Below the pieces are notes generated by a model. It was given only the letters and a program-made list of their open reading frames with translations. It did no database searches and was not told the DNA's origin. Positions 1 through 8,497 of a stretch of 64,000 nt of DNA are shown piece after piece. The position numbers and the translations under genes were made by a program. Every line of letters starts with the position of its first letter. Position 1 is the first letter of the stretch. The DNA comes from Fictibacillus nanhaiensis (lineage in GTDB: Bacteria; Bacillota; Bacilli; Bacillales; Fictibacillaceae). Location of the stretch: assembly GCA_016401345.1 (NCBI GenBank), contig JAEACG010000001.1:248001-312000 (forward strand), given 5' to 3'.

Positions 1-309
1 TGTTAAGATGTTCTGAACCACACTCATCCTCGGTATTAAGTTAAAATGCTGAAAGATCATACCTGTTTTACGCCGGACTTCTAACGTTTCTTTGTGAGTC
101 ATCTCACTCAACGTTTTATCTCCCCATTTCACATAACCCTCAGAAACAGGCTGCAGACCGTTAATACATCTTATAAACGTTGATTTACCTGCACCGCTTC
201 TACCTAGTACACAAACGAACTCCCCTTTTTGGAAAGTAATATTTACATCTGTTAAAGCAGGTTCTTTAGCACCAGGATATGTGACAGATACATTCTCAAA
301 TTCAATCAT
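1..309 (-). CDS. phnC: PhnC-like ABC transporter ATP-binding protein (partial, cut by the left edge)
   Basis: ATPase subunit of a phosphonate-type ABC importer. Only the first 103 residues are in the window; the gene runs off the left edge. The visible part contains the Walker A motif GRSGAGKS near residue 37 and a Q-loop (MIFQHFNLI) near residue 85, as in PhnC, which couples ATP hydrolysis to import of phosphonates or related oxyanions at the membrane. The ATG at 309 is preceded by AGGTG and lies 8 bases after the phnE stop, so it is the third gene of phnD-phnE-phnC. The substrate cannot be read from the ATPase. The neighbouring selB suggests a selenium oxyanion as an alternative to phosphonate (inference). 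Confidence 0.9.
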   Translation of the reverse strand, partial: MIEFENVSVTYPGAKEPALTDVNITFQKGEFVCVLGRSGAGKSTFIRCINGLQPVSEGYVKWGDKTLSEMTHKETLEVRRKTGMIFQHFNLIPRMSVVQNILT

Positions 310-317
310 GTTATCAC

Positions 318-1076
318 CTAAATAACCTTTTCCCGAATTTTTCCGCCAATATAATCCACCAAGATCACCATGATCATGATGAGTAGAACGTCAACAGAGA
401 CTAGCTGATATTGAAACGTTTTAAAATGAATAAACAACTGTTGTCCTATTCCCCCACCACCAATAAGACCTAAGATGAGTGAAGTACGTATAGCTACTTC
501 AAATCTGTAAAAGAATTGAGACAGTACATTCGGCCATATTTGTGGTAGCACTGCAAATAGATTTCCGATCCACTTACTTGCTCCAACCGCCGACATCGCT
601 TCCATCGGACCCTTATCTGCCGCCTCGATCAGTTCTGAAATCAACTTACCTAATACCCCGATGTTATGCAAGACGATGGCGATAACAGCAGGAAATGGTC
701 CTAGTCCGAGCGTTGTTAAAAGAATTAAGCCGAACACGAATTCAGGAACTGATCGTAAAAAGCTAAGTAAGAAACGTGTCATTGAATATACAAAACGATT
801 TCTACTCGTGTTTCGAGCGGCGACAAAGCTTAACGGAAGTGCGATGATTAATCCGAATAAGCTCCCCAAAAATGCGATAGCGATCGTTAATAAACTTTCT
901 TGAAACAGATATGGTAGACTCTCTGTGTTCATCGGAAACCATTTCGACAAAAAGTCACCCATATTCTGAAAGTCACTAAATTTCGAAAGATCAAACTCCG
1001 TTAACTTCATGCTACCTAACACGAGTATTGTTAAGCATAATATGATTAATAATTGGCTCCTCTTAAACCAAACCAT
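318..1076 (-). CDS. phnE: PhnE-like ABC transporter permease
   Basis: Membrane permease of the PhnCDE-type importer, 252 residues. Hydrophobic segments are seen near residues 7-24, 60-85, 105-140, 195-215 and 225-245. An EAA-type cytoplasmic loop (EAADKGPMEAMSAVGAS) near residues 150-167 would contact the ATPase. The ATG start follows AGAGGGG at good spacing. It sits 9 bases after phnD and 8 bases before phnC, so the three form one operon unit, in the order binding protein, permease, ATPase. The upstream genes on the same strand are a glycosyltransferase and selB. Family assignment is firm; the transported compound is unknown. Confidence 0.92.
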   Translation of the reverse strand: MVWFKRSQLLIILCLTILVLGSMKLTEFDLSKFSDFQNMGDFLSKWFPMNTESLPYLFQESLLTIAIAFLGSLFGLIIALPLSFVAARNTSRNRFVYSMTRFLLSFLRSVPEFVFGLILLTTLGLGPFPAVIAIVLHNIGVLGKLISELIEAADKGPMEAMSAVGASKWIGNLFAVLPQIWPNVLSQFFYRFEVAIRTSLILGLIGGGGIGQQLFIHFKTFQYQLVSVDVLLIMIMVILVDYIGGKIREKVI

Positions 1077-1085
1077 GGTTCCCCT

Positions 1086-1982
1086 CTATTCTTGAATGGT
1101 ACCCTCTTTAATAGCCGCTTTTCGGATACTTTCGTAATCCTTATTTGCGGCCTTCGTAAATCCAGTTGCGCCAAAAGCATCCAAAATTTCTTTATCTTTA
1201 ATATCTAAAAAGATCTCTTGAAGTTTTTTCATCGTTTTCTCATCTGTACTTTTAGATACAGCCCAAGGATATTGGAACAATTTCTCTGACTTCCAGATCA
1301 CTTTAAACTGATCTCCGTCGATCGTTCCTTCTTCGATTAATTTATCGTATATCGCGCTGTCGATCGCACCAACATCCACTTGTTTGTTTTGAACAGCAAG
1401 AGCGGTTGCATCATGAGAACCGGTAAACCTAACATTATTAAAATCACTATCAGATTCACTTCTATAGATGCCTTCATCTTTTAGTTTGATACTCGGAATC
1501 AAAGAGCCCGAAGTTGAGGATGGATCACCAAAAGCAAACTTTACGTTCTTAGCATCAGATACCATATCCTCAAGGTTTGAATATTTGTTGTCTTTATGGG
1601 TGATCAAATAAGAATAATAGAATGGTTCACCTTTGATCAATTGTGTTACGATCGCTTTAGCTCCACTTTCTTCATGAGCAACAACGTATGTAAGAGGTCC
1701 GAAATAAGCCATGTCGATCTTATCATAGTTCATCGCCTCAACAACACCGTTGTAATCCGGATAAGATGTGATCTTAACTTCTCTGTCCATCTTCTTACTA
1801 AGCACTTTCTGAAGTTTATCAAGTGCCCCCTTCATCTCACCTTCCGTTTGGGCTGGGATTACCCCAATCGTAAAGACCTCATCTTTATTCGATTTTGCAT
1901 TCTTCTTATCATCGTTATTCGTTCCGCAAGCTGATAAGAGTAAGATCATAGTCAGCAGCAACAAACTAAGTTTTTTCATCAT
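1086..1982 (-). CDS. phnD: PhnD-family substrate-binding lipoprotein of an ABC importer (phosphonate or selenium oxyanion)
   Basis: Extracytoplasmic solute-binding protein, 298 residues. The N-terminus is a lipoprotein signal peptide with lipobox LLSAC, so the mature protein would be tethered by a lipidated Cys near residue 19. The body shows PhnD-family features (TIGVIPAQTEGEM, YFGPLTYVVAHE, FGDPSSTSGSLIPS, GSHDATALAV, VGAIDS). PhnD relatives bind phosphonate, phosphite or phosphate; one clade has been associated with selenium genes and is annotated as a putative selenate transporter. Here the gene lies 18 bases after a glycosyltransferase that directly follows selB, which favours a selenium role by context only. 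SD GGAGAG precedes two adjacent ATG codons; either may be used. Confidence 0.88.
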   Translation of the reverse strand: MMKKLSLLLLTMILLLSACGTNNDDKKNAKSNKDEVFTIGVIPAQTEGEMKGALDKLQKVLSKKMDREVKITSYPDYNGVVEAMNYDKIDMAYFGPLTYVVAHEESGAKAIVTQLIKGEPFYYSYLITHKDNKYSNLEDMVSDAKNVKFAFGDPSSTSGSLIPSIKLKDEGIYRSESDSDFNNVRFTGSHDATALAVQNKQVDVGAIDSAIYDKLIEEGTIDGDQFKVIWKSEKLFQYPWAVSKSTDEKTMKKLQEIFLDIKDKEILDAFGATGFTKAANKDYESIRKAAIKEGTIQE

Positions 1983-2000
1983 ATTCTCTCCTTTTTTCTA

Positions 2001-2996
2001 TTATTTTTTATATAGTTCCATGTATGAAGCTATTTCTTTTTTAATAGTGTGCTTCTCTTCTATGGTTTGAAACCCTCTATCACTAAGTTGTTTATAAAAT
2101 TCTTGATCTGATATCACAATCTTTATAGATTGGTATAATTCTTCATGAGATTGAAACAGCAATCCGTTATTTCCGTGTTGTATGATGCTAGAGTTTCCAA
2201 CGTTTTCCCTTGCGATTACAGGCTTCTTAAAACTCATTGCTTCTAATAATGCTGTCGACTGTCCTTCTGAGATCGATGTATTCAATACAACATCTCCCCA
2301 TTCATAAAGCATTTTCATCTGACCGAGCTCTACTTCTGGTATATAATACAGCCAATCATACTTATTTTCTGCTTCTTTCATTTTTTTAAATTCTTCAGAA
2401 TCTAAGTTGGGTCCTACTATTAAAAAGGTGAGATCAGGATAATCACTAGATAATTTAATCATACTCCGCAATGCAAAAAGAACATCCTTAACTGGGCGAA
2501 TTCCAGCTGGCAGTAACAGTTTAGGCTTTCCATCAGGCAAAGTGAACGCTTCATTCTTATTTTCAATAGAAGGTAAATAAATACTTTGAGGTATTACATA
2601 GATTGAATGATCACTTAGTCCATAGTCTTCGACGAGCAATTGTTTAGCTTTTTGAGTAAAAACTGTGATTGCTTTCGCTTCACGCAACAGAGGAAGATAC
2701 CTTTTTTCGTCTTCTTCTAGCGAGTGGTTGAGATCTGTTCCTCCAGAAGTAACGATATAAGGTTTATCCAACGTAACATCATTTTTTTCAGCCCATTGAA
2801 CGAATCTAGAAAAATGAAGGATGTGATAGATATCCGCTTTCTCCATCCATTCAAAAAGAGCAGGATTAACACCAATTTCTTCATATGGAAATAAAGAAAA
2901 CTCAACTTTCTCAGACAATCCATGTTCTAATCGTTTGGCCGTAGTAGAATTTCCACGATTTTGTTTATAATACGGAGTGAAAAAGACGACTCTCAA
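2001..2996 (-). CDS. GT4-family glycosyltransferase resembling selenosugar synthase SenB
   Basis: Predicted cytoplasmic GT-B glycosyltransferase of family GT4, 331 residues. Seen: an N-terminal GNSTTAKRL near residue 15; GGTDL near 85; IPQS near 135; the diphosphate-binding R-P-V-K at 167-170; and the C-terminal SEGQS..LLEAMS block at 243-255. From memory, SenB enzymes, which join selenophosphate to a UDP-sugar, share the GN..TA..R, TGTDL, Y/PQS, R-x-VKD and EG...EA landmarks. The start is TTG directly after the selB stop TAA, so translation is probably coupled to selB. It is followed by the PhnD-type importer. A selenium role is inference from context and motif resemblance; an ordinary sugar transferase cannot be excluded. 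Confidence 0.8.
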   Translation of the reverse strand: MRVVFFTPYYKQNRGNSTTAKRLEHGLSEKVEFSLFPYEEIGVNPALFEWMEKADIYHILHFSRFVQWAEKNDVTLDKPYIVTSGGTDLNHSLEEDEKRYLPLLREAKAITVFTQKAKQLLVEDYGLSDHSIYVIPQSIYLPSIENKNEAFTLPDGKPKLLLPAGIRPVKDVLFALRSMIKLSSDYPDLTFLIVGPNLDSEEFKKMKEAENKYDWLYYIPEVELGQMKMLYEWGDVVLNTSISEGQSTALLEAMSFKKPVIARENVGNSSIIQHGNNGLLFQSHEELYQSIKIVISDQEFYKQLSDRGFQTIEEKHTIKKEIASYMELYKK

Positions 2997-4889
2997 TTAT
3001 TGCACCCATTTCCTAACATTAGATTCCCGCATCGTATACCCTTTTGAATCCATACATTCCAAGATCGGTATTAAGAACTTTCTTGATGTATGAAGAACCG
3101 CTTTAGCATCCTGCACGGAAAACGTTGAATCCGTATTGATTCGCAAGTGTTCAACTGCTGAATCAAATGCCTTTTTACTCAACATCACTTCATCATACAG
3201 CAATACCACTTCATTGGATTTAATCAAAAAGTACTTAAACTCATGATAAAGAGGTTCTGGAAGTTGTTGAGCGTTATAGATGTTCTGTAGGTCATCCGGC
3301 TCGAGCTGTGCTTCTTCCAAGGTGACAAGAACATTCGCCATTCTTTTCGCCCATTTTTGTGGATAATGCGGTTTAAAATGTGATAAATGAACAAAATGGT
3401 CTGTGATCGAAACGGTTGAATCTGTTATCCATTTTTCAAGAAGCGTGTTAACTATTTTCGGATTTACTTCATTTTGGAACGATTGAACAATTTCTGCCTT
3501 TGGAATACCTTGCCTTAAACTATACTCACTATGGAAGTTTTGAAGTTTGTTCATGATGCTAGATTTTATATGTTTTACCTTAGAATCAGCAACCAAATAA
3601 TTTTGTATTCGAGCTACAGAACCCTCACTTATTAGTTCATCCAACGTGTGTTGAAGAACTTCATCATCCATTCCACTCGAGCTCGTAAGTTCTCCTTCTG
3701 TCATCGATCCTACTTTATTAAGCAACTGTAGGACCCGTTCATTTGGAGTTCCTTCATGTTTACTCCTCAATCGTTCGATCGTCTCCGTTCCAAATCTATA
3801 AACAGATCCGTTCGGGTCGATAACCTCTCCTCCTCCGATCGTTTCCTCAGGAGTCGGCCGTCTTAAGATGAAACGATCACCTCGTTTTGTTACGACTTCT
3901 TGATCTAATCGAACTTGACAATATATTTGATCTTCATTGACATCTAACTCATTTCGGTCAAAAAGGACGAGTTTACCCATCACTTCCGACGTACCACTAT
4001 AAAACTTCACAGAAGAGCGCTGTTTCAACTTCCCTTTCCACCCTTCACCCGTTGATAATACGAGATCGATAGTGTTCGTGGTCGAATAGACATTCGGCTC
4101 TACTAGAACATGCCCTCTTTTCCAATCCGCTTTAGAACCTCCTGAAAGATTTATCGCTGCTCTTTGACCGGCTCTAGCTGAATGAACTTCTTGTTTATGC
4201 ACTTGAAGTTTTCGAATCTTCACTTTAACGTTCCCAGGCTGAACAAAAAGTTCATCACCTTCCTGTACTTCACCTTCATAGACAGTACCTCTTATAACAG
4301 TCCCTTGTCCTTTCACGGTAAAGATATGATCGATCGGCATGCGAAAAGCGCCTTGTGAAGATCTAACAGGTGTGTCTTTTAAGAGGTTAATGATTTCACT
4401 CTTCAACTGGTCTATTCCAGCAGAAGAAACACTGTCTACAAAATGTATTGGAAAATGTTCAAACACCGATGAGTTTGTAAGTTCCAAAATGTCTTCTTCA
4501 ACTAACAAACGCATCTCGTCATCAATCATATCTGACTTCGTAACAACGATGATTCCCTTTTCAATGCCTAAGAAGGAAAGAATTTCAAAGTGTTCTCTCG
4601 TTTGAGGCATCACTCCTTCATCTCCTGCGATTACAAGGAGAACAAGATCAATTCCTGCTACACCAGCGATCATTTGACGGATGAGCTTTTCATGCCCTGG
4701 TACATCCACGATGGAAGTATGCAGATCCTTCGTTAACGGAAAAGGTGCAAACCCTGGTTCAATCGTTATCTTGCGAGCTTTTTCTTCTTTGAGCGTGTCT
4801 GTGTCGATTCCACTTAAAGCTTTAGTAAGCGTCGTTTTTCCATGATCGATGTGTCCTGCCATTCCGATCGTATAATATTTAATCGTCAT
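2997..4889 (-). CDS. selB: Selenocysteine-specific translation elongation factor SelB
   Basis: SelB brings Sec-tRNA(Sec) to the ribosome at UGA codons followed by a SECIS hairpin. About 630 residues, in the family range. The EF-Tu-like GTPase domain has GHIDHGKT at 12-19, DVPGHE at 62-67 and TKSD at 117-120. Two beta-barrel domains follow (GQGTVIRGTVYEG near 210), then a C-terminal winged-helix region that binds SECIS RNA in the family. The chosen ATG at 4889 has AGGTGG 8 bases upstream; a GTG at 4901 overlaps that SD and is unlikely. The gene is divergent from tRNA-Sec, about 400 bases away, and heads a unit with the glycosyltransferase and phnDEC. selA and selD are not in the window. Confidence 0.97.
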   Translation of the reverse strand: MTIKYYTIGMAGHIDHGKTTLTKALSGIDTDTLKEEKARKITIEPGFAPFPLTKDLHTSIVDVPGHEKLIRQMIAGVAGIDLVLLVIAGDEGVMPQTREHFEILSFLGIEKGIIVVTKSDMIDDEMRLLVEEDILELTNSSVFEHFPIHFVDSVSSAGIDQLKSEIINLLKDTPVRSSQGAFRMPIDHIFTVKGQGTVIRGTVYEGEVQEGDELFVQPGNVKVKIRKLQVHKQEVHSARAGQRAAINLSGGSKADWKRGHVLVEPNVYSTTNTIDLVLSTGEGWKGKLKQRSSVKFYSGTSEVMGKLVLFDRNELDVNEDQIYCQVRLDQEVVTKRGDRFILRRPTPEETIGGGEVIDPNGSVYRFGTETIERLRSKHEGTPNERVLQLLNKVGSMTEGELTSSSGMDDEVLQHTLDELISEGSVARIQNYLVADSKVKHIKSSIMNKLQNFHSEYSLRQGIPKAEIVQSFQNEVNPKIVNTLLEKWITDSTVSITDHFVHLSHFKPHYPQKWAKRMANVLVTLEEAQLEPDDLQNIYNAQQLPEPLYHEFKYFLIKSNEVVLLYDEVMLSKKAFDSAVEHLRINTDSTFSVQDAKAVLHTSRKFLIPILECMDSKGYTMRESNVRKWVQ

Positions 4890-4923
4890 ATGTTTAACCA
4901 CCTATATGTACATACTCTTCTAC

Positions 4924-4952
4924 ACTTTATGAAAAGGAGATGTAAAAAACAA
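4924..4952 (-). promoter_or_regulatory. Candidate sigma-A promoter of selB
   Basis: On the minus strand TTGTTT (4947-4952) and TAAAGT (4924-4929) are separated by 17 bases, about 35 bases before the selB start. The -10 box has two mismatches, so the call is moderate. Confidence 0.45.
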
Positions 4953-5050
4953 GGATAACGCCTTATTCATTGTTGAAAAATAGCGAAGTTTGCCTGATCA
5001 ATATTATTTCCCAAGTCGCCATAAACGGATGTATATTTATTCACGCCTGT

Positions 5051-5096
5051 ATACCCACAGGTTATCCACAGAACAAGTTATTCACACTTGTCCACA
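5051..5096 (+). promoter_or_regulatory. Cluster of DnaA boxes
   Basis: Three same-orientation nonamers match the DnaA consensus TTATNCACA: TTATCCACA at 5062-5070, TTATTCACA at 5078-5086 (both exact) and TTGTCCACA at 5088-5096 (one mismatch). A weaker copy, ATACCCACA, lies at 5051-5059. They sit in the selB/tRNA-Sec divergent region. DnaA binding is predicted, not shown. Confidence 0.6.
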
Positions 5097-5103
5097 GGGC
5101 GAA

Positions 5104-5172
5104 CTGTTATAGTGGAGAAAATGATCTGTTATAGCGGAAAGCTGTTATAGTTCATTATCCTCTCTGTTACAG
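5104..5172 (+). repeat. Four spaced copies of CTGTTATAG
   Basis: CTGTTATAG occurs at 5104-5112, 5126-5134 and 5142-5150, with CTGTTACAG at 5164-5172. Start-to-start spacings are 22, 16 and 22. Some copies continue with YGGA. The function is unknown. The array lies between the DnaA boxes and the tRNA-Sec promoter. Confidence 0.7.
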
Positions 5173-5234
5173 TCGTTCTTTTCCATCGTTCGACAAACCT
5201 ACACTCCCCTATCGTATGTAATAATTCACAAGCC

Positions 5235-5264
5235 TTGTCCTAACGTGGTAAAATGCTGTATAAT
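5235..5264 (+). promoter_or_regulatory. Sigma-A promoter of tRNA-Sec (and probably yneK)
   Basis: TTGTCC (5235-5240) and a perfect TATAAT (5259-5264) are separated by 18 bases. Transcription would start about 5271, some 20 bases before the tRNA 5' end. Confidence 0.7.
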
Positions 5265-5290
5265 GCAATAGCGAGCTAGAGATTCTATTT

Positions 5291-5387
5291 GGGGCCAGAT
5301 GTGTAGCTGGTGCTTGCCTGGGTCTTCAAAACCTTTTGGGAGGCGCGTGCCGTCTCCGGTGGGTTCGATTCCCACATGGTCCCGCCA
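5291..5387 (+). tRNA. selC: tRNA-Sec (anticodon UCA)
   Basis: A 97-base cloverleaf with encoded CCA. The acceptor arm GGGGCCA pairs with TGGTCCC, followed by discriminator G. The anticodon loop is CTTCAAA, giving TCA at 5326-5328. A long variable arm (about 5337-5358) forms a stem, and the T arm GTGGG/CCCAC encloses TTCGATT. The UCA anticodon, long variable arm and extended acceptor are diagnostic of bacterial selenocysteine tRNA, which is charged with Ser, converted by SelA and delivered by SelB. selB lies divergently next door. No terminator is seen before yneK, whose SD begins 16 bases after the CCA. Confidence 0.96.
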
Positions 5388-5415
5388 AAAAAATTATACA
5401 TATGAGGTGGACGCA

Positions 5416-5841
5416 TTGTCTGGATGGTTCATCACTTTTATCGTGTTATGGTCCGTTTTTTTATTTACAATGTTTGCGATCGGTGGATATTTTATGTTCC
5501 GTAAGTTCTTAAAACGTCTTCCAAAAGAAGATGGAAAATCGATTTTAGATTGGCAAGAACATTACATCAACCAAACCATTCATCTTTGGACGGATGATCA
5601 GAAAAAGCTTCTCAATGAATTGGTAGCCCCGGTCCCTGAACTCTTTAGGGATGTAGCTAAAGAGAAGATCGCTGGCAAGATCGGTGAGTTAGCATTACAA
5701 GAAAAAGCAAGTTCTATGTCACAAGACTTAATCATTCGCGGCTATATTATCGCAACTCCAAAAAGAGACCACAAATGGCTGATTAAGACTTTAAAAAAGA
5801 AAAACATCGACATTAAACCTTATCATTCTTTACTCGCATAA
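5416..5841 (+). CDS. yneK: YneK-like DUF2621 family membrane protein
   Basis: Protein of 141 residues with one N-terminal membrane segment (about residues 5-27) and a soluble, charged C-terminal domain. It matches the YneK/DUF2621 family, which has no known function and lies beside ccdC in Bacillus; here ccdC is the convergent neighbour, so synteny supports the name. The start is TTG at 5416, with GAGGTGG 5 bases upstream. Extending the frame further upstream would translate the tRNA-Sec gene, which is an artefact. The gene is probably transcribed from the tRNA-Sec promoter, since no terminator or second clear promoter separates them. Confidence 0.88.
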   Translation: MSGWFITFIVLWSVFLFTMFAIGGYFMFRKFLKRLPKEDGKSILDWQEHYINQTIHLWTDDQKKLLNELVAPVPELFRDVAKEKIAGKIGELALQEKASSMSQDLIIRGYIIATPKRDHKWLIKTLKKKNIDIKPYHSLLA

Positions 5842-6352: not shown

Positions 6353-6808
6353 TTAGTTCCCTTCCCCTACTTCTTTCTCGATCTTATCTTCTGCAATTGA
6401 GAGGATAATGGTCATCGTAACTCCGATTACTGTCAAATATACACCTAAATCAAAAAGCATCGCTGTAGCAAGCTCTGTTTTCCCTAACAAAGGGAGTTGA
6501 AAATAGCCAAAACTGTGACTCAAAAACGGAATACCTAAAACAAAGGAACCTGCGCCGGTGAGAATGGCGATCAATAAACCAGCTGCGATCATGTACGTAA
6601 AGTTTATCGGCAATATTCTATGTACAGGTTGTAACCCGTAGGAAACATAGAGAAGAAGAAATGCTCCCGCTCCCATCAATCCTCCGATAAATCCTCCACC
6701 TGGAGCATTATGCCCTGAAAAAAGCATGTTAATTGAAAAAGCTAGAATAACAAAAACAATGATATTTGTTGTTGTTTTTAAGATAAGGTCATTCGAACGT
6801 GAATGCAT
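6353..6808 (-). CDS. Orphan MrpB/MnhB-type Na+/H+ antiporter subunit
   Basis: Membrane protein of 151 residues. Landmarks of MnhB/MrpB are clear: NDLILKTTT at the N-terminus, then FSGHNAPGGGFIGGLMGAG (about 30-49), LTGAGSFVLG, PFLSHSFGYF and LGKTELATAMLFDLGVYL (about 105-125). MrpB is normally one of six or seven subunits of the Mrp cation/proton antiporter. No other mrp gene is in the window, so this is an orphan, placed between ccdA and ccdC. ATG follows AAGGGG. It could serve as a stand-alone paralogue, or join an Mrp complex encoded elsewhere. The family call is firm; the role is open. Confidence 0.92.
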   Translation of the reverse strand: MHSRSNDLILKTTTNIIVFVILAFSINMLFSGHNAPGGGFIGGLMGAGAFLLLYVSYGLQPVHRILPINFTYMIAAGLLIAILTGAGSFVLGIPFLSHSFGYFQLPLLGKTELATAMLFDLGVYLTVIGVTMTIILSIAEDKIEKEVGEGN

Positions 6809-6835
6809 GATGTATATCCCCTTTCCATATTACTC

Positions 6836-7546
6836 TTAAAAACCTTTGAATCCTCCAAACACACGGTTTGTTAGAAATGACGTTAATTGTGTCAGCCAAT
6901 CAAAGTATAGAAGGATTCCCATAACAACCATAAGAGTCCCTCCTACCAACATAAACTGACGGTTGAACTTTTTTATTACCTTTAGTTTATCCAAAAAGAA
7001 GCTTAAAACAAAGAAAGGAACAGCAAATCCTAAAACATAAGCGACCATATACGTCATAGATGCTGCCGGATTTGACACCCCAAGCGCAATAACGCCTGCT
7101 AGAATGGGACCCATACAAGGTGTCCATCCTGCTGCAAAACCAATACCGATCAACACGGAACCTAGATAACCAGTAGGACGAGATTGAAACCTTACCTTCT
7201 TATCCTTCATCAAAAATGTAGGAGTTATGAATCCCATCACTACAAGACCAAAAAAGATGATTACAATAGCTCCAATTTGCCTTAACAGTGTTTGATATTC
7301 TACGAATAGATCACCGATTATCGTAGTCGATAGACCAAGGAAAATAAATATGATCGAAAATCCTATTAAGAAAAATGTAGTATGTAGAAGCGCCGTTTTT
7401 CTTAGCATGGCGTTTTCTTCTTTAAGTTCCTGAACAGAGATCCCAGTTATGTAAGATAGAAAAGCAGGATACAATGGTAAACAGCAAGGTGAAATAAAGG
7501 AGAGCAAGCCAGCTCCAAAAGCAAGCAGAATATTAAGATCGGTCAT
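6836..7546 (-). CDS. ccdA: Cytochrome c biogenesis protein CcdA
   Basis: Polytopic thiol-disulfide electron transporter that passes reducing power from cytoplasmic thioredoxin across the membrane to extracytoplasmic thioredoxin-like proteins, for cytochrome c and spore maturation. It has 236 residues, the usual length. The paired redox cysteines lie in SPCCLPLYPAF (about 19-29) and GWTPCMGP (about 137-144), each within a membrane helix, and about six helices are seen. The gene heads a unit with the mrpB-like gene (27 bases downstream) and ccdC. An AAAGGGG SD precedes the ATG with somewhat long spacing. Confidence 0.96.
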   Translation of the reverse strand: MTDLNILLAFGAGLLSFISPCCLPLYPAFLSYITGISVQELKEENAMLRKTALLHTTFFLIGFSIIFIFLGLSTTIIGDLFVEYQTLLRQIGAIVIIFFGLVVMGFITPTFLMKDKKVRFQSRPTGYLGSVLIGIGFAAGWTPCMGPILAGVIALGVSNPAASMTYMVAYVLGFAVPFFVLSFFLDKLKVIKKFNRQFMLVGGTLMVVMGILLYFDWLTQLTSFLTNRVFGGFKGF

Positions 7547-7621
7547 TTTTTAGTAAGCCCCTTTTTTACAGTTCTCTCTCTATATTAAAGGGAATACCCA
7601 TTTTGTTCAAACATAAAGAAA

Positions 7622-7643
7622 GACAGCTTAGAAAAAAGCTGTC
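7622..7643 (-). terminator. Hairpin after the VanY-type carboxypeptidase gene
   Basis: GACAGCTT (7622-7629) pairs with AAGCTGTC (7636-7643) just past the stop. The T-tract on the minus strand is weak. Confidence 0.6.
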
Positions 7644-7651
7644 AGAGATGT

Positions 7652-8497
7652 TTATGGTTTTTGTAAATACTCTTCGAGCGTGATGCCCTGCTCGTGAATT
7701 GCTTTGGCATGATCTACCCCAACATATCGGAGATGCCAAGGTTCATATTGATATCCAGTAATATCTTCTTTCCCTTTCAGATATCTGATGATGAATCCAT
7801 ACTTATGAGCATTATCTGCTAGCCATTTTCCTTCTTTTGTCTCGCCAAAGGCTTCTACAAGTTCAAAGTTCACTTCTTGTGATGTAACATCCATTGATAA
7901 TCCAGTCTGATGTTCACTCTGACCTGGCTTGGAGCTCGTTTTGTTCGCTACTTCTTCCCCTTTTTGCTCAGCATTAAAGGCGAAGATAGACACTTGCGTA
8001 TCATAAGAGCGATACCCGGATTGTGCTAGCAACTCGAGACCGTCCTCTTCAGCTGCCTTAAACAATACTTCTAAAGAAAGAGCAGCCTCTTTTCTTAATT
8101 TTTTCTTAGGTAGATCCTCTTTAAAAGGAAACGGAACATTTGGTGTAACTAAATCTTTCGGTTCATAATTATCGGGTAGGTTTCTTTCCTTGTTCGCAAC
8201 GATTAAAAGATCGTCTAGATTCTGTACCACCGCTTTCCCGTCACCAGATACCGTTACCGTTTCTTCTAACCACGGCAGATCAACTTCTGCTGATGGTTGT
8301 TCATCGTTATTTTCTGTTTTGTTTTCATCATTTGGTTTTGGCTTTGTTTGTTCATTTGAAATCTGTTTTTCGTTCTTTTCAGAATTTTCTTCATTAAAGG
8401 CAGCGTCCCATTTCTTTTCTGCCCAGTCAACTGGCTTACATGCCGAAAGGACAACCATGCTGCCGATCAACATTGATGGTAGAACATATTTCTTCAA
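7652..8497 (-). CDS. yodJ: VanY-family D-alanyl-D-alanine carboxypeptidase lipoprotein
   Basis: Peptidoglycan-trimming peptidase (M15B) of 281 residues. A lipobox VLSAC near residue 20 predicts surface anchoring. A low-complexity acidic/Asn-rich linker (about 35-75) follows. The catalytic domain has the zinc motif SEHQTGLSMDV (His, about six residues, Asp, near 195) and EPWHLRYVG near 255, with the second His and the catalytic Glu. It would remove terminal D-Ala from pentapeptide stems. The start is TTG at 8497 after AAGGATGAG; no in-frame ATG is nearby. It is a single-gene unit with its own promoter. The name YodJ is by family resemblance. Confidence 0.88.
   Translation of the reverse strand: MKKYVLPSMLIGSMVVLSACKPVDWAEKKWDAAFNEENSEKNEKQISNEQTKPKPNDENKTENNDEQPSAEVDLPWLEETVTVSGDGKAVVQNLDDLLIVANKERNLPDNYEPKDLVTPNVPFPFKEDLPKKKLRKEAALSLEVLFKAAEEDGLELLAQSGYRSYDTQVSIFAFNAEQKGEEVANKTSSKPGQSEHQTGLSMDVTSQEVNFELVEAFGETKEGKWLADNAHKYGFIIRYLKGKEDITGYQYEPWHLRYVGVDHAKAIHEQGITLEEYLQKP

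Follow-up and report, generated by a model that had tools for sequence, protein, structure and literature searches.

A conserved selenium gene cluster of Fictibacillus nanhaiensis and its relatives, with a SenB-related glycosyltransferase and a PhnDEC-type importer

We analyzed a 64,000-nucleotide stretch of the Fictibacillus nanhaiensis genome (G000:C1:248001-312000 of a 4.28 Mb genome; hereafter, the window), one end of which holds a gene cluster for selenium use. The cluster is a real and widely conserved selenium module in which genes for uptake (phnDEC), selenocysteine (Sec) decoding and a SenB-related family 4 glycosyltransferase (GT4) belong together, by gene order and by genome-wide co-occurrence. 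We favor, with slightly better than even confidence, a two-branch reading in which selenium taken up by PhnDEC would serve both Sec decoding and the formation of a seleno sugar by GT4. The compound taken up, the chemical product and the part played by a deacetylase that some of the genomes have are predictions.

Layout of the cluster and gene order in relatives

The cluster genes within the window are as follows.

5291-5387, plus strand: selC, tRNA-Sec with anticodon TCA (ARAGORN; Rfam RF01852, 58 bits, gathering score 47)
2997-4901, minus strand: selB, Sec-specific elongation factor (TIGR00475, 361.9 bits, cut-off 242.25)
2001-2996, minus strand: GT4 glycosyltransferase related to SenB and NF038229, a proposed Se-glycosyltransferase, with a TTG start
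1086-1982, minus strand: phnD/PtxB-type substrate-binding lipoprotein, a proposed selenium oxyanion binder (TIGR01098, 224.1 bits, cut-off 112.05)
318-1076, minus strand: phnE-type permease (TIGR01097, 253.9 bits, cut-off 216.7)
1-309, minus strand: 5' part of a phnC-type importer ATPase (whole gene G000:C1:247569-248309)

Read from right to left across the window edge, the order is tRNA-Sec (plus strand), selB, GT4, phnD, phnE and phnC (minus), selD (plus) and selA (minus). The window edge cuts phnC, and the complete gene reaches 289.7 bits with TIGR02315 (cut-off 266.1). All gene positions in the earlier note on this DNA were confirmed, as was its description of genes running in one direction opposite tRNA-Sec with gaps of 0-18 bases: the GT4 start abuts the selB stop (gap 0), and the next gaps measure 18, 9 and 8 bases. 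The note had also suggested looking beyond phnC for selA and selD, and both are present above the cut-offs of their models (selD, 404.5 bits; selA, TIGR00474, 540.7 bits). The genome thus has the Sec-decoding trait, with selA, selB and selD over their cut-offs and tRNA-Sec found by two programs. SelD is itself very likely a selenoprotein, because an in-frame TGA, at codon 18, falls within the motif usual for SelD (THLSSKGG-U-GCK), downstream of AAAGGAGG and an ATG. No SenA model match was found among the ten flanking proteins scanned or the cluster proteins, the rest of the genome not being searched.

phnC and selD converge, and a terminator-like hairpin lies between them. The same scan marked two terminator-like sites on the minus strand, one within phnC and one within selB, and a promoter-like site close to where GT4 begins, all at chance level (scan totals of 6 terminators vs 4.7 in shuffled sequence, and of 22 promoters vs 19.3), so we infer co-transcription of selB-GT4-phnDEC from spacing only.

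We next consider relatives. Scanning the contigs of named genomes with the GT4 alignment gave 79 loci, including two (L125 and L126) without a GT4 match at the order-counting threshold. Among named genome records, the GT4 of the window has its nearest matches in Fictibacillus species (at most 79% identity). In 47 of the 79 loci, selB is immediately followed by GT4, under 13 genus names that range from Fictibacillus to Halalkalibacter, Anaerobacillus and Salibacterium; the arrangement is therefore not peculiar to a single genome, the outcome that the earlier note had named as damaging. Both phnD and phnE come after GT4 in 43/79 loci, and selD lies inside the fetched stretch in 47/79. Alkalihalophilus pseudofirmus OF4 (L070) has tRNA-Sec, selB, GT4, phnDEC, selD and selA together, and five of the 47 selB-GT4 loci have no phn genes there (three from Anaerobacillus, one each from Bacillus piscicola and Aliibacillus). 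Outside the selB-GT4 pairs, the run GT4-selD-phnD-phnE-phnC-deacetylase occurs in L188, L196 and L237, and GT4 adjoins selA and selD in L085 and L103.

A survey of 34 genomes of the same family, with an orthologue defined by at least 40% identity, found the GT4 orthologue in 25 and selD and selB over their cut-offs in 32 each; the two selD-free genomes gave only weak GT4 matches. Seven selD genomes had no GT4 orthologue, one in genus g2 and six in g3, and three of their loci were opened. The two from g3 (L039, L047) read selA-selD-selB in a stretch free of GT4 and phn genes. At the g2 locus (L038, genome G018), a glutamate-synthase-like gene at 6718-8319 fills the slot between selD and selB that GT4 and phnDEC use in relatives.

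We also noted several variants of the cluster. Bacillus pinisoli (L087) has two tRNA-Sec genes (2321-2417 and 7844-7940) about 5.5 kb apart near one sel cluster. Genome G030, whose full cluster is in L044, carries selB and selA once more as a pair on a different contig (L045, C89); the 12 kb fetched there include neither GT4 nor phn genes. The GT4 frame of Bacillus sp. FJAT-27225 (L110:10001-10970) is broken, apparently by a frameshift, and the genome retains selD. A NifS-type cysteine desulfurase gene (L196:9520-10626), possibly for a selenium donor enzyme, lies just upstream of the GT4-selD-phnDEC-deacetylase run. Lastly, L235, L239 and L240 hold a second, divergent SelD (41-45% identical to that of the window genome) beside a LysR-type regulator (PF00126), resembling the LysR_Se association described in PMC5322559.

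Co-occurrence with selD across genomes

A whole-genome search for selD was made for 25 of the 79 loci, namely those with selD absent from the stretch or GT4 not beside selB. selD exceeds the cut-off in all 25 genomes, including those of Geobacter sp. OR-1 and Amycolatopsis eburnea, the SelD frame of the latter having no TGA. In 19 of these 25 genomes GT4 has no adjoining selB, phnD or selD; seven further loci of this unlinked kind, all from metagenome bins, lay outside the test, as did L124, L125 and L126.

To sample more broadly, 398 genomes were drawn evenly from the class and searched with the GT4 profile A1 (E <=1e-25) and for selD (E <=1e-60). GT4 was found in 45 genomes, spanning 18 families, and selD in 121. 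The association of GT4 with selD anticipated in the earlier note is borne out: selD is present in 41/45 GT4 genomes vs 80/353 others (p 1e-19, a value that, like all our co-occurrence p-values, ignores shared ancestry). The SelD frame has a TGA in 41/41 genomes with both genes. Of 38 genomes in which the matched SelD has no TGA, not one carries GT4; in one of the 38 (G251) the SelD match begins only at position 42, beyond the Sec site. For each genome these searches scored only 5 first-look candidates (GT4, PhnD) or 8 (deacetylase), and may therefore overstate absences.

The importer behaves likewise. Profile A6, built from cluster-linked PhnD proteins, splits off a distinct type at a score gap from 385 to 243 bits. 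This PhnD type was found in 34/398 genomes, and selD in 34/34 of them vs 87/364 others (27/27 without the seven genomes that supplied profile rows); 29 of the 34 also carry GT4. phnD is within 15 kb of selD in 15/34 genomes and farther away or on another contig in 19/34. This importer type tracks selenium use whether or not the genes are linked: all 34 genomes have selD even though 19 do not have the two genes near each other. These data bear on the idea that PhnDEC and GT4 serve ordinary phosphorus and envelope functions and are passengers in a sel operon. Their family names agree with it, as do three genomes, all of one genus, that have GT4 without selD, but both the PhnD type and GT4 track selD even when unlinked, and we consider the idea improbable, hitch-hiking of phnDEC in particular being disfavored.

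A third component accompanies GT4 in part of the genomes. A deacetylase of family CE4, about 200 residues long, adjoins GT4 or follows the last of the phn genes in L068, L188, L189, L194, L196 and L200, with the motifs T.DDGP, HxxxH and RPP, which we take to be the CE4 catalytic motifs, invariant in 6 rows. Profile A2, made for this type, separates it at a score gap from 246 to 181 bits; a generic deacetylase in L086 that had looked part of the set proved to be of another type and was left out. A2-type deacetylases occur in 15 genomes, all GT4-bearing, and in 0/353 GT4-free genomes. Without the five profile genomes the count is 10/10, five of these ten being one genus with the deacetylase near GT4. 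Within the 83 genomes with a TGA-type SelD, the deacetylase is present in 15/41 with GT4 vs 0/42 without. The window genome has its own copy (C1:1383405-1384010; PF01522, 102.2 bits), unlinked to GT4. In both Fictibacillus genomes examined, a PP-loop ATPase gene (PF01902; L232:6687-7373 and L233:7402-8100) adjoins this GT4-associated deacetylase; the ATPase is possibly a further pathway enzyme.

Several counts weigh against the two-branch reading. The four GT4 genomes without selD are G079, G099 and G115, of one genus, and the fragmented G101; the first three hold three of the four lowest GT4 scores, and two of them are single-contig assemblies, the third being 86% complete. GT4 is missing from 42/83 genomes with a TGA-type SelD and from 5/34 PhnD-type genomes, and the PhnD type from 16/45 GT4 genomes. 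The deacetylase type is missing from 30/45 GT4 genomes, which limits any claim of a deacetylation step to the others.

The glycosyltransferase and the importer

The earlier note had called GT4 SenB-like. The best NCBIfam match of the window protein is NF038229 (226 bits, nearly full length), and the SenB model TIGR04348 aligns residues 4-309 with model positions 2-289 at 56.8 bits. GT4 is thus akin to SenB along nearly all of its length, and both scores fall below the curated cut-offs (300 for SenB, 400 for NF038229), a point against the favored reading. A plasmid-borne SenB of Methylorubrum with an adjoining senA has, besides its own model, NF038229 as its only NCBIfam match at <=1e-9, and a profile-profile alignment of 52 GT4s with this SenB extends over 309 columns (probability 99.5%).

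More distant relatives were also compared. A Geobacter member (L112), whose genome has selD, scores 387 bits with NF038229, under the cut-off, and on its own has RsSenB as its best solved-structure match. In plasmid searches, the window GT4 gave weak matches below 60% identity, none annotated SenB among the 20 matches listed; the Geobacter relative led to two SenB-annotated records, and a SenB query to one more. Against solved structures, a short N-terminal query gave no useful match. A Streptomyces plasmid relative (L258) scores 235 bits with NF038229; no recognizable selenium gene is among the 17 annotated features around it, its genome not being searched for selD.

In the SenB papers, the selenophosphate pocket comprises N20, H58, R61, T83, T85 and R155, with the catalytic K158 and, nearby, D86, and T23 and E231 steer the choice of donor (PMC10891094); UDP is contacted by G19, R22, E231 and E239 (PMC10702425). 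The window GT4 retains 11 of the 12 mapped positions (G19, N20, T23, H58, R61, T85, D86, R155, K158, E231 and E239), the sole change being T83, which is G85. R22, outside the mapped 12, aligns by place with T18 of GT4 and is Gln in RsSenB and Thr in the Methylorubrum SenB. Among 52 GT4 rows, the equivalents of G19, N20, T23, T85, D86, R155, K158, E231 and E239 are kept in 51 or 52, that of H58 in 49 and that of R61 in 44. Two of these positions argue the other way: T83 is Gly in 48/52 rows, and R61 is altered in 8/52. The C-terminal SenB-equivalent residues are general GT4 features; the N-terminal GNxxT and LHxxR are the telling SenB-like stretches.

An AlphaFold2 model of GT4 (mean pLDDT 95.6) was compared with solved structures by Foldseek, and WlaC, BshA, MshA and SenB were found at similar E-values. 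Among the 50 matches listed, SenB chains had the highest target-normalized template modeling (TM) score (0.81) and the lowest rmsd (4.1). Other measures favor its rivals: the E-value ranks WlaC, BshA and MshA chains above SenB, the query-normalized TM score of a BshA chain is 0.80 vs 0.79 at best for SenB, and the GT4 profile A1 scores TreT (62 bits), TarM (59) and BshA (54) above RsSenB (29), a lead gained mostly through the C-terminal domain.

It is therefore worth weighing whether GT4, like BshA and MshA, makes a low-molecular-weight thiol-like or other N-acetylglucosamine compound that helps to reduce or carry selenium, with an acceptor other than selenium. The closeness of BshA and MshA in fold, the higher profile scores of BshA among solved structures and the deacetylase partner, which resembles the logic of the BshA and MshA pathways, are in its favor. 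However, the BshA model TIGR03999 covers only residues 149-331 of GT4 (46.9 bits, cut-off 273.7), whereas the SenB and NF038229 models match nearly its full length, and GT4 retains the SenB stretches GNxxT and LHxxR. We judge this alternative unlikely. An assignment of GT4 as BshA was likewise set aside, given the match of only its C-terminal half to the BshA model, with the profile A1 scores pointing the opposite way.

As for the importer, the earlier description of PhnD as PhnD-type is right at the level of the phosphate/phosphite/phosphonate-binding subfamily TIGR01098, whose cut-off is exceeded twofold (see list above). It does not extend to the PhnD equivalog TIGR03431 (220.6 bits vs 261.1) or to TIGR04553, the 'putative selenate ABC transporter substrate-binding protein' (185.4 bits vs 250), two shortfalls that count against the favored reading. 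The nearest solved structure is PtxB. The contacts described for PtxB include an STS-H motif, a hinge Tyr and a capping Tyr (PMC5700983). The STS-H oxyanion motif, hinge Tyr (Y122) and capping Tyr (Y238) are invariant in 14 PhnD rows, and Asp22, which holds the capping Tyr in Te_PtxB, aligns with Ala44. Selenite is a fair guess for the imported anion because phosphite and selenite are both small XO3 anions; phosphite itself may instead be the PhnD ligand.

Proposed selenium route and comparison with known systems

From the gene content, order, co-occurrence and residue conservation observed above, we infer all substrates, products and the direction of transport. In the two-branch reading, PhnDEC, a PtxB-like importer, would take up a small selenium oxyanion, most likely selenite. 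The oxyanion would be reduced to selenide and converted by SelD, here very likely a selenoprotein, to selenophosphate. In one branch, SelA, SelB and tRNA-Sec would place selenium into proteins. In the other, GT4 would join selenophosphate and a UDP-sugar, as SenB does, to give a 1-seleno sugar. In lineages with the CE4 deacetylase, this genome included, the sugar would probably be N-acetylglucosamine and would then be deacetylated, as in the MshA/MshB and BshA/BshB pairs. The earlier note had proposed that uptake, use in protein and a small-molecule product are tied together; gene order and genome-wide co-occurrence support such a tie, and the joint function itself is still deduced.

A different use of the same genes would be salvage or storage, with PhnDEC importing an organic or phosphorylated selenium compound and GT4 reversibly parking excess selenophosphate as a sugar to be returned to SelA and SelB. 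The same linkage data fit; where selD is present in the class set, GT4 goes with a TGA-type SelD and thus with likely Sec users; and the ten flanking proteins scanned gave no SenA match. Yet the deacetylase suggests that in some of the genomes the sugar is processed further, the SenB reaction proceeds with Se-P cleavage, and outside the class an Amycolatopsis with a 25%-identical GT4 relative has a SelD without TGA. We give salvage or storage a minor share of our belief, somewhat above that of the thiol-like product.

Sec may also occur in GT4 itself. Three GT4 genes have an in-frame TGA at one common alignment position (codon 44 of the L164/L165 frame): L164 and L165, from two genomes of one genus, and L107 from Salipaludibacillus neizhouensis (TGA at L107:10127-10129). 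In all three cases phnD adjoins and the genome has a TGA-type SelD, and in L107 a Shine-Dalgarno-like stretch and an ATG lie upstream of the TGA. Between L164 and L165, dN/dS is ~0.19 before the TGA (43 codons) and 0.13 after it; L107 is too diverged for a useful ratio. A hairpin taken from the L164 fold starts 13 bases past the TGA, with 11 pairs and the loop AGRGUM. Over the three rows 90.9% of its cells are paired and two pairs are changed on both sides, and sliding the partner by 1 to 3 columns leaves at most 48.5% paired. There are points on the other side: 47/500 shuffles perform equally well, with only three rows to compare; the best fold of L107 differs from the L164-derived hairpin; and no aligned GT4 row shows Cys at the TGA position. 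In an energy test for a Sec insertion sequence, the folds of the three genes were ordinary relative to shuffles (z -1.0, -0.6 and -0.4), and two additional searches, covering 35 and 5 genomes of relatives, yielded no new TGA form. Taken together, the three proteins are likely but unproven selenoproteins. A term search of a 2026 selenoproteome review (PMC13188914) finds no glycosyltransferase.

A fuller version of the two-branch reading can be put forward more tentatively, at somewhat less than even confidence: a second, Gram-positive selenium small-molecule route, not leading to selenoneine, in which a PhnDEC-type selenite importer, SelD, a divergent Se-glycosyltransferase and a CE4 deacetylase would yield a selenoglucosamine-type metabolite, the selenium counterpart of the sugar half of bacillithiol, with GT4 itself a selenoprotein in three species. 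Selenium genes, an importer and a SenB-related enzyme in many Bacillus relatives point to an undescribed selenium small molecule. If the reading is true, a divergent SelD-tied branch that spans 18 families of the class and has an importer type and a deacetylase of its own would constitute a second pathway with a Se-glycosyltransferase, and a dedicated selenium importer would gain a name, with genes directly testable in, for example, Alkalihalophilus pseudofirmus OF4.

Three other genes near the cluster were noted. An aconitase-like gene, named by eye, lies further left of selA. A mechanically called DUF2621 open reading frame (window 5299-5841) overlaps tRNA-Sec, and the real gene probably begins only after the tRNA. 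A CcdA/DsbD-like membrane protein (6839-7546) has a weak match to the TsoB selenoprotein model (48.6 bits, cut-off 805), probably through the common DsbD domain only.

In PMC10891094, SenB is called the only functionally identified Se-glycosyltransferase, and its relatives, mined at >55% similarity, are mainly from beta-proteobacteria. The candidate-gene table of PMC5322559 has one glycosyltransferase (Shel_25140), and PMC5029168 names two neighbors of orphan selD, for an ABC ATPase and for a cysteine desulfurase. We found no paper joining GPMC with a glycosyltransferase, and among the titles and abstract openings listed, none mentions a GT4 or PhnD for selenium clusters of Bacilli.

MshB and BshB, which follow MshA and BshA in mycothiol and bacillithiol synthesis, are deacetylases of the LmbE type. 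The cluster described here has in common with those pathways a similar fold and the logic of a GT4 enzyme paired with a deacetylase, but its deacetylase is of the CE4 type (PF01522) and the proposed acceptor is selenophosphate. Among proteins of the PtxB/PhnD kind (TIGR01098, TIGR03431; PMC5700983), the present type occurs, in the class sample, only in selD genomes; it matches nearly the whole of TIGR04553, a model with which NCBIfam already allows for a selenium binder of the PhnD kind. NF038229, the nearly full-length best match of GT4, is called 'GPMC system family 4 glycosyltransferase', a name that states no function. With SenB (TIGR04348; PMC10891094 and PMC10702425), GT4 has in common the GT-B fold, full-length homology and a tie to SelD. 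Unlike SenB, which stands beside senA, the GT4 of the window adjoins selB and phnDEC, and whereas the SenB-like enzymes mined in PMC10891094 are mainly beta-proteobacterial, GT4 was found here in Bacilli.

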